DNA of 64,000 nucleotides from contig NZ_AP014723.1 in NCBI RefSeq assembly GCF_001548035.1, positions 1,550,001 to 1,614,000 of the forward strand, written 5' to 3'. This document shows, in pieces, positions 14,671-16,762 of the stretch. Below the pieces are notes generated by a model, which had not been told where the DNA came from, made no database searches, and saw only the letters and a program-made list of their open reading frames with translations. Numbering within the stretch: the first letter of the stretch is position 1; every line of letters starts with the position of its first letter. The DNA comes from Sulfurospirillum sp. UCH001. Its GTDB lineage: Bacteria > Campylobacterota > Campylobacteria > Campylobacterales > Sulfurospirillaceae. A program made the translations under genes and the position numbers.

Positions 14671-14696
14671 TAAGAGCTTTATATAAAGCTCTTATT
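14669..14696. terminator. bidirectional terminator, perfect 28-base palindrome
   Basis: AATAAGAGCTTTA and its exact inverse meet around TA. The palindrome covers the stop codons of both convergent genes, and stable stems form on either strand. Confidence 0.7.
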
Positions 14697-14880
14697 TCGT
14701 AAATCCACACGCCTTAACGTCTTTATCATCCTCTTTCACAACCACTTGCGCTGCGATGACAGTTTGTCCATTAAACGTGACTGATGGGCTTCCATGTAGT
14801 TTCCAGCCATTATTTAAAAACTCCGTTACCCTCGCACAAAACGTTGAGTCATCCGGTCCAGTAATAAGTTTATATTGCAT
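14692..14880 (-). CDS. DUF1737 small protein
   Basis: 62 residues matching the DUF1737 pattern: YKLITG near the start, then VTEFLNNGWKLHGSPSVTFNGQ. These short soluble proteins have no known function. AAGGAGT lies just before ATG. The gene is short but its composition and the conserved pattern support it. Confidence 0.75.
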   Translation of the reverse strand: MQYKLITGPDDSTFCARVTEFLNNGWKLHGSPSVTFNGQTVIAAQVVVKEDDKDVKACGFTK

Positions 14881-14929
14881 ACATACTCCTTCATAGATTT
14901 ACTAAGAAGCAGTATAGCGCATAATCTTT

Positions 14930-16033
14930 TTAAATGACAAAGTCGTTTTCCTCATAACAAATCACACGATTACGCCCCTGAGACTTTGCTTGATACAAAC
15001 ATTTGTCTCCCAAAACAACTAAGGTGTTAAAATCTTCGATCTCTTCACTGTTACGAATTAAACCAACACTAACGGTAACACGAATCTCTTCTGTATTGTA
15101 ATGCATTGTCGTTTCTTCGATTTTTATACGTATGCGCTCTGCTATTTCTCTTGCTTCAAGTAGTGTTGTTTGAGGTAGCAAAACACCAAATTCTTCTCCT
15201 CCAAGTCGTCCTATGATGTCATATTCTCGCGTCTGCTCCAAAAGAATTTTCGAAACCGTTTGAATGACCATATCACCACATTCATGACCATACGTATCAT
15301 TGACTCTTTTAAAATGGTCCACATCCAGCATCAAAAACGAACTTCCTTTATCGACTTTCCATTTACGGCGTGACTCTTCATACTATGTACGACGATTTAA
15401 GAGGTTAGAGAGACTATCTAAGGACATCAAAACATGGTTTTGCAAAGCATTTTTGTAGGCTTCTTTGCCATTTTTACGGTTCAACCAAACAACAGCAAAA
15501 ACATATCCCAATAGAGGGAATGCCAAAGAGAGAAATACAGCAATATCTTCTTCTTTTTGGTTAGTCCATATCATCACAGCAAACATAAAAGCAACTTGAT
15601 ACCCTTCCATAATGAAAAAGATTTTTTTTGTAATTAATGGCGTAAGCATCATTGTTGCGATCAAATAAAAAAACCACGAATACACTACAAAGTGAATAGG
15701 ATTTCCAAATAAAAGATAGGTCAGAGTCACTGCACTAAACCCCATGGTTCCAAAAGTGGTAATTCCTAGAACATTTCGATGCTCAAAAAAAGGATGAGCC
15801 GTGGCAAGGACAACCATAATAGCAAAGAAAAAAGTGGTCATTCGTCCACCTAAAATATAATGAAAAATTGGGCTATCGCTATGGAGTTGATAATCAAAAG
15901 GAATATAGATAATGGTAAGAAGAACTCCAAACCAACTAAATATCAAAAAATTTTTTGATATACGTTTCCAAAAGTAATCTTCAAAAGAATCAAAATGAAC
16001 TAAACGGTTCGGAAGGATTTGTGAAGTTTCCAT
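14930..16033 (-). pseudogene. membrane diguanylate cyclase interrupted by an in-frame TAG
   Basis: The first part (16033 down to 15386) encodes about six membrane helices and the start of a GGDEF domain (SLSNLLNRRT). Then TAG at 15385-15383 stops it. The same frame continues without any shift (YEESRRKWKVDKGS...), through the metal-binding DVDHF, GGEEF signature and the QAKSQGRNRV end, to 14930. Read through, it would be about 366 residues, a normal cyclase. The downstream part could restart at TTG 15334 or ATG 15331 behind AAAGGAA, giving a 133-134-residue GGDEF fragment lacking its first helix. Either a recent nonsense mutation, a sequence error, or read-through. Confidence 0.85.
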
Positions 16034-16127
16034 ATAAAACTCCTAAAAAAGGGCTTTTCTATAATTTTGTACGATACAGTATGATCTAGTATATCAAAAA
16101 AACTAATAAACTACATAATTAAATTCC

Positions 16128-16169
16128 TAGATGTAGATCAAGGTTTTTTATTTTTAAATGAGATAAAAT
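16128..16169 (+). promoter_or_regulatory. tpx-nnrS promoter with FNR/CRP-type site
   Basis: TAGATgtagATCAA (16128-16141) differs in one base from the FNR consensus TTGAT-N4-ATCAA. A -10 TAAAAT (16164-16169, within GATAAAAT) predicts a start near 16176, which puts the site centre (16134.5) at -41.5, the class II activator position. There is no good -35 box, as expected for an activated promoter. Confidence 0.6.
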
Positions 16170-16201
16170 GACTCTCATATAAAACAATTGAAAGGATACT
16201 C

Positions 16202-16762
16202 ATGACGTTTACAGCAAAAATTGACAAAACCGCTCTTAAGGGCACACCCGTAAAGTTGGAAGGAAACTTCCAAGAAGTAGGTAATTATGCGCCTATCGTA
16301 AAAGTTGTCACACCAGACTTACAAGAAAAAACCATTGGTGGTGAAGGTAATAAAGCACAACTCATCATTGCAGTACCTTCTTTAGATACACCTGTTTGCG
16401 ACGCAGAAGCAAGACGCTTCAACCAAGAAGTTGCTAAACATGAGAACATCGATACAACAGTCATTTCAATGGACTTGCCTTTTTCAGCAGCAAAGTTCTG
16501 TAACGTAGCAGGTATTGAAAATATCACGGTGGGAAGTGACTTTAGACATAAAGCCTTTGCACGTGCGTATGGTATGCTCATCAGTGATGGTGCACTAGAA
16601 GGTTTATGTGCAAGAGCACTCTTTGTTATCAGTAAAGATGGCAAAATCGTTTACAAACAAGTTGTTCCAGAAATCACCGAGGAACCAAATTATGACGAAG
16701 CGTTAAATGCCGCTATCGATGCAGCCAACCGAGGGGCTAGTTGTTGTGGTTTTTGTCAGTAG
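16202..16762 (+). CDS. tpx: Tpx, thiol peroxidase with a cysteine-rich tail
   Basis: Atypical 2-Cys peroxiredoxin that reduces peroxides using thioredoxin. The peroxidatic Cys is C66 in SLDTPVCDAE and the resolving Cys is C100 in AAKFCN. At 186 residues it is about 15-20 longer than usual Tpx; the extra tail ends GASCCGFCQ with C181, C182 and C185, which could bind metal or join redox exchange. AAAGGAT precedes the ATG. The last 17 bases overlap the proposed nnrS start, so the two genes are translationally coupled. Confidence 0.93.
   Translation: MTFTAKIDKTALKGTPVKLEGNFQEVGNYAPIVKVVTPDLQEKTIGGEGNKAQLIIAVPSLDTPVCDAEARRFNQEVAKHENIDTTVISMDLPFSAAKFCNVAGIENITVGSDFRHKAFARAYGMLISDGALEGLCARALFVISKDGKIVYKQVVPEITEEPNYDEALNAAIDAANRGASCCGFCQ

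Follow-up and report, generated by a model that had tools for sequence, protein, structure and literature searches.

An accessory membrane-bound diguanylate cyclase gene of Sulfurospirillum sp. UCH001, probably a recent nonsense pseudogene

Results

Sulfurospirillum sp. UCH001 is a groundwater bacterium. A stretch of 64,000 nucleotides of its chromosome (positions 1,550,001 to 1,614,000 of NZ_AP014723.1, hereafter the window) was analysed, and contains on its minus strand a frame (16033–14930) of 367 codons and a terminal TAA, the translation of which comprises a membrane domain and a GGDEF domain (Table 1). The frame is interrupted by a single internal stop, a TAG at codon 217 (15385–15383) flanked by LLNRRT and YEESRR. 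With Gln placed at the stop, residues 205–356 match the GGDEF family PF00990 with 136.3 bits (cut-off 23.8), the stop lying 12 residues into the match. GGEEF, the active-site motif of diguanylate cyclases, and RxxD, the motif of their product-inhibition site, are both intact. The initial annotation had described a diguanylate cyclase gene with one in-frame TAG inside the GGDEF domain, between LLNRRT and YEES, with the GGEEF site intact and the rest of the gene undamaged; translation and the PF00990 match confirmed this, and revealed no second stop or other lesion in the frame.

Table 1. Coordinates of the features at the locus (window positions)
Feature	Position	Strand	Remarks
Broken membrane-anchored diguanylate cyclase gene	14930..16033	(-)	368 codons including the final stop; six relatives in the genus
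Pre-stop coding part	15386..16033	(-)	216 residues: membrane domain and the initial 12 GGDEF-match residues
In-frame TAG	15383..15385	(-)	Codon 217; TGG in 6/6 relatives
Post-stop part	14930..15382	(-)	150 codons and terminal TAA; rest of the GGDEF domain
AAAGGAA, Shine-Dalgarno-like	15343..15349	(-)	Lys-Gly in the original frame; Lys-Gly codons in relatives too
Possible restart ORF	14930..15334	(-)	134 aa from TTG 15334, 133 aa from ATG 15331; GGDEF profile match
RxxD (REYD), intact	15218..15229	(-)	5 residues ahead of GGEEF; read from sequence
GGEEF active-site codons, intact	15188..15202	(-)	Read from sequence
Divergent neighbour, Tpx-type peroxidase gene (presumably tpx)	16202..16762	(+)	Right edge of variable spot
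Downstream neighbour, DUF1737 protein	14692..14880	(-)	62 aa; left edge of variable spot

As a member of PF00990, the encoded protein exceeds the curated cut-off and carries the GG[DE]EF site, but the frame is not continuous through the domain, being broken by the TAG. The best PDB match by sequence is 3ign, and chains of PleD and WspR match as well. Single-sequence structure prediction was poor (mean pLDDT 47.4), and no conclusion rests on it. The part encoded before the stop contains several hydrophobic segments and gave no match either in Pfam, searched to E = 1, or in NCBIfam, searched to E = 0.001; among the 44 family genomes searched, this membrane domain was found in this genus only.

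A search of the genus with the membrane part located the gene in 7 of 24 genomes, including that of UCH001, with no match in the other 17; the wider family search (44 genomes in all) did not find it in any of the 20 further genomes, some of the genomes in both searches being incomplete drafts. All six other copies run on into the GGDEF domain, five of them in one open frame and the sixth (G019) frame-shifted by 10 N. The genus search showed the G019 copy in two pieces, an effect of this run of 10 N. Since the six relatives align along the frame with 70–77% protein identity on both sides of the stop, frame 16033–14930 is a real gene and not a chance opening. More precisely, protein identity is 71–77% before the stop and 70–77% after it, in agreement with the initial description of both flanks as open and conserved, and nucleotide identity is 71–74% and 66–74%, respectively. 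A genome-contig scan covered 80 of 587 relatives, all of them 30–46% identical at their best segment, and was left unused.

In the alignment, the codon at the position of the stop is TGG (Trp) in all six relatives, and not CAG, the codon named in the initial annotation for checking, so that the in-frame stop occupies a position where every intact relative has a sense codon, the pattern of a nonsense pseudogene. TGG and TAG are separated by one transition (G-to-A). The residue equivalent to codon 217 was also counted in the other GGDEF domains of the genome: in the best 29 of 48 other matches, aligned, it is Leu in 18, Phe in 10 and Ile in 1, and a large hydrophobic residue is therefore the rule there. 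CATG is under-represented in the window (positions 1–64000), with 241 occurrences seen and 341 expected from trinucleotides, and the mutation that gave rise to the TAG would have destroyed one CATG if the preceding codon was ACA as it is now. The idea of the lost site as a CATG mutation hot spot was dropped, since the under-representation shows no mechanism.

Selection on the two parts of the gene was estimated with a codon model on the seven sequences, implemented as a custom script and using a tree with node support of 28–80%. For the window branch, the 216 codons ahead of the stop gave an omega of 0.015 and the 150 codons behind it one of 0.022, values that are rough because the branch is synonymously saturated (neutral substitutions per codon, 7.6 and 12.2, respectively); for the other branches, omega was 0.070 and 0.071. 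Forcing omega to 1 on the window branch cost 12.6 lnL units before the stop and 10.0 after it. In view of the saturation, the custom script and the node support, we conclude from these values no more than that the post-stop part was under selection during most of its history. A recent stop and continued use by read-through would give the same outcome in this test. The post-stop part is about as conserved as the pre-stop part and has no second lesion, which fits a recent stop, 'recent' being relative to a very long branch. Among the possibilities raised in the initial annotation (very recent, an error, or read through), the first is thus the best fit.

The cyclase gene adjoins tpx in four of the seven genomes that have it (G000, G008, G012 and G022), and comes after rmuC in the other three (G013, G019 and G023), RmuC being identified by Pfam in G023 and by similar sequence in G013 and G019. 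Fourteen tpx loci lack the cyclase; at this spot, eight of them carry an ORF similar to the G008 RhuM/Fic-type gene, and six have neither, the type being assigned by Pfam on the G008 copy and the other loci being read from ORF starts. The interval from the DUF1737 gene to tpx (window 14881–16201; tpx loci L166–L183) accordingly holds the cyclase, the RhuM/Fic-type gene, both (G008) or neither, and looks like a spot of gene exchange. Given that both its presence and its neighbours differ between genomes of the genus, the cyclase gene is accessory. It lies beside a type I restriction R-subunit-like gene in G013 (L164 7289–9592, by Pfam) and in G022 (L179, by similar sequence).

Discussion

Judging from one strain of the species, we consider it very likely that this accessory, membrane-bound cyclase gene has recently become a nonsense pseudogene. 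A G-to-A transition would have converted the TGG that encodes Trp in the relatives into TAG early in the GGDEF domain. Translation would end there and yield a 216-residue membrane protein without the catalytic domain, and the gene would no longer make cyclic di-GMP. This predicted loss of cyclase activity is judged from the missing GGDEF domain in the terminated product. The stop appears to be both recent and tolerated, the latter because 48 other GGDEF matches remain in the genome and because the gene is probably dispensable, given the 17 genus genomes (some incomplete) that gave no match.

The initial annotation also pointed out a restart site, from which a free GGDEF fragment could be made beside a separate membrane part. 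The site itself is in the sequence: TTG 15334 and ATG 15331 lie 48 and 51 nt past the stop, with AAAGGAA 8 nt and 11 nt ahead of them, respectively, and conservation extends beyond the stop. In addition, two proteins sized like the two halves are described for Shigella flexneri dgcM (PMC11327459). However, in the relatives, which have no stop, the ATG is present in 6/6 and AAAGG in 5/6 (AAGGG in G013) as codons for Met and Lys-Gly, respectively; the restart site is therefore not new. The restarted ORF would cover positions 36–161 of the 161 positions of the GGDEF profile, lacking positions 1–35 with the NRR motif, so that the downstream fragment does not contain a complete GGDEF domain and a working free domain is unlikely. 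The Shigella stops, moreover, precede the GGDEF domain, and dgcM lowered c-di-GMP on expression (PMC11327459). We therefore regard a gene split by reinitiation as very unlikely. Our literature search found no paper joining nonsense mutation, diguanylate cyclase and reinitiation. A scan of promoters and terminators found sites no more numerous than in shuffles.

It is similarly improbable that the deposited base is wrong, or that the mutation is confined to the sequenced culture. The change, as assessed from the assembled sequence, is a lone substitution in a gene otherwise intact. Nevertheless, the UCH001 chromosome (AP014723, 2,606,563 bases) was assembled from 454, Illumina HiSeq and Illumina MiSeq reads, finished by Sanger sequencing and checked for accuracy, as stated in the genome report (PMC4384155), which also suggests that UCH001 represents a new species. 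Data from 454 and two Illumina libraries finished in this way are unlikely to contain a substitution error, which disfavours the error proposed initially, and a culture mutation, although possible, would still be a genuine nonsense mutation.

Retention of the 216-residue membrane part in an independent role once the cyclase was lost would agree with its conservation (71–77% protein identity to the relatives). This conservation is, however, common to relatives that still carry the GGDEF domain, the post-stop part is conserved about equally, and all six other copies found in the genus search continue into GGDEF, making a separate role highly improbable.

We find it extremely unlikely that the TAG is decoded at a useful frequency, whether by a suppressor tRNA, as pyrrolysine or by programmed read-through, to give some full-length enzyme. 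The frame is open and conserved on either side of the TAG, and bands of full-length size are described for Shigella dgcQ and dgcN despite their stops (PMC11327459). In the UCH001 genome, a search with RF00005 gave 45 tRNA matches, all typed by ARAGORN in 43 loci, with one tRNA-Trp (anticodon CCA). No CUA or UUA anticodon, and hence no suppressor tRNA of the kind that the initial annotation proposed to look for, was present among the 45, although an odd tRNA could have escaped, since 150 of the 218 first-look candidates were scored. The genome has four tRNA-Ile/tRNA-Ala pairs, in agreement with the four rRNA operons given in the genome report (PMC4384155).

The gene for RF1 (prfA) is intact, with 530.6 bits (cut-off 423.25). 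An internal TAA in a second prfA match was discounted, being by translation the ordinary end of what we take to be a prfB-like gene. No PylS match in the genome exceeded the cut-off (best 27.3 vs 178.15 bits). Internal stops were found in 1 of 49 GGDEF matches (this locus only), 0 of 64 response-regulator matches and 0 of 37 chemotaxis-receptor signalling matches, making the TAG gene the only one with an internal stop among 150 signalling-domain matches. Furthermore, the relatives carry TGG, with the stop conserved in 0/6, and the TAG is therefore not a conserved recoding site. Neither a UAG-decoding tRNA nor a corresponding synthetase was found among these searches, and nothing points to amber recoding; read-through, as raised in the initial annotation, is thus unsupported. 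An in-frame TAG with conserved flanks need not mean recoding.

It is exceedingly improbable that the stop has turned one enzyme into two products, the membrane part and a restarted GGDEF fragment, which still act jointly or separately as a regulated cyclase in two pieces.

The preferred reading, a recent nonsense pseudogene, has the appearance of unremarkable gene loss of recent date; nothing indicates that the stop codon is read or that a new enzyme in two parts has arisen. It has little import beyond annotation, as a case of one cyclase being turned over in a genome with many c-di-GMP proteins. This turnover sits at the DUF1737–tpx spot, the content of which differs between species.

Compared with known systems, the UCH001 protein resembles the membrane-anchored GGDEF diguanylate cyclases (PF00990) in its intact GGEEF and RxxD motifs and in its score of 136.3 bits when read through, but differs from them in its interruption by the TAG and in a membrane domain without a Pfam match. 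The locus also resembles the Shigella flexneri pseudogenes dgcE, dgcM, dgcN and dgcQ, in which a premature stop has a Met codon close by and an intact GGDEF motif downstream (PMC11327459). In dgcE, dgcN and dgcQ, the nonsense mutations lie before GGDEF and c-di-GMP was still raised, whereas dgcM gave proteins of both half sizes but c-di-GMP was reduced (PMC11327459). A stop alone is therefore no proof of loss of function, and this precedent keeps a restart alive as a rival to recent gene loss. The Shigella genes, however, were tested by expression and their stops precede the GGDEF domain (PMC11327459), while the UCH001 stop lies inside it, after 12 GGDEF residues, and the nearest restart would lose 35 profile positions.
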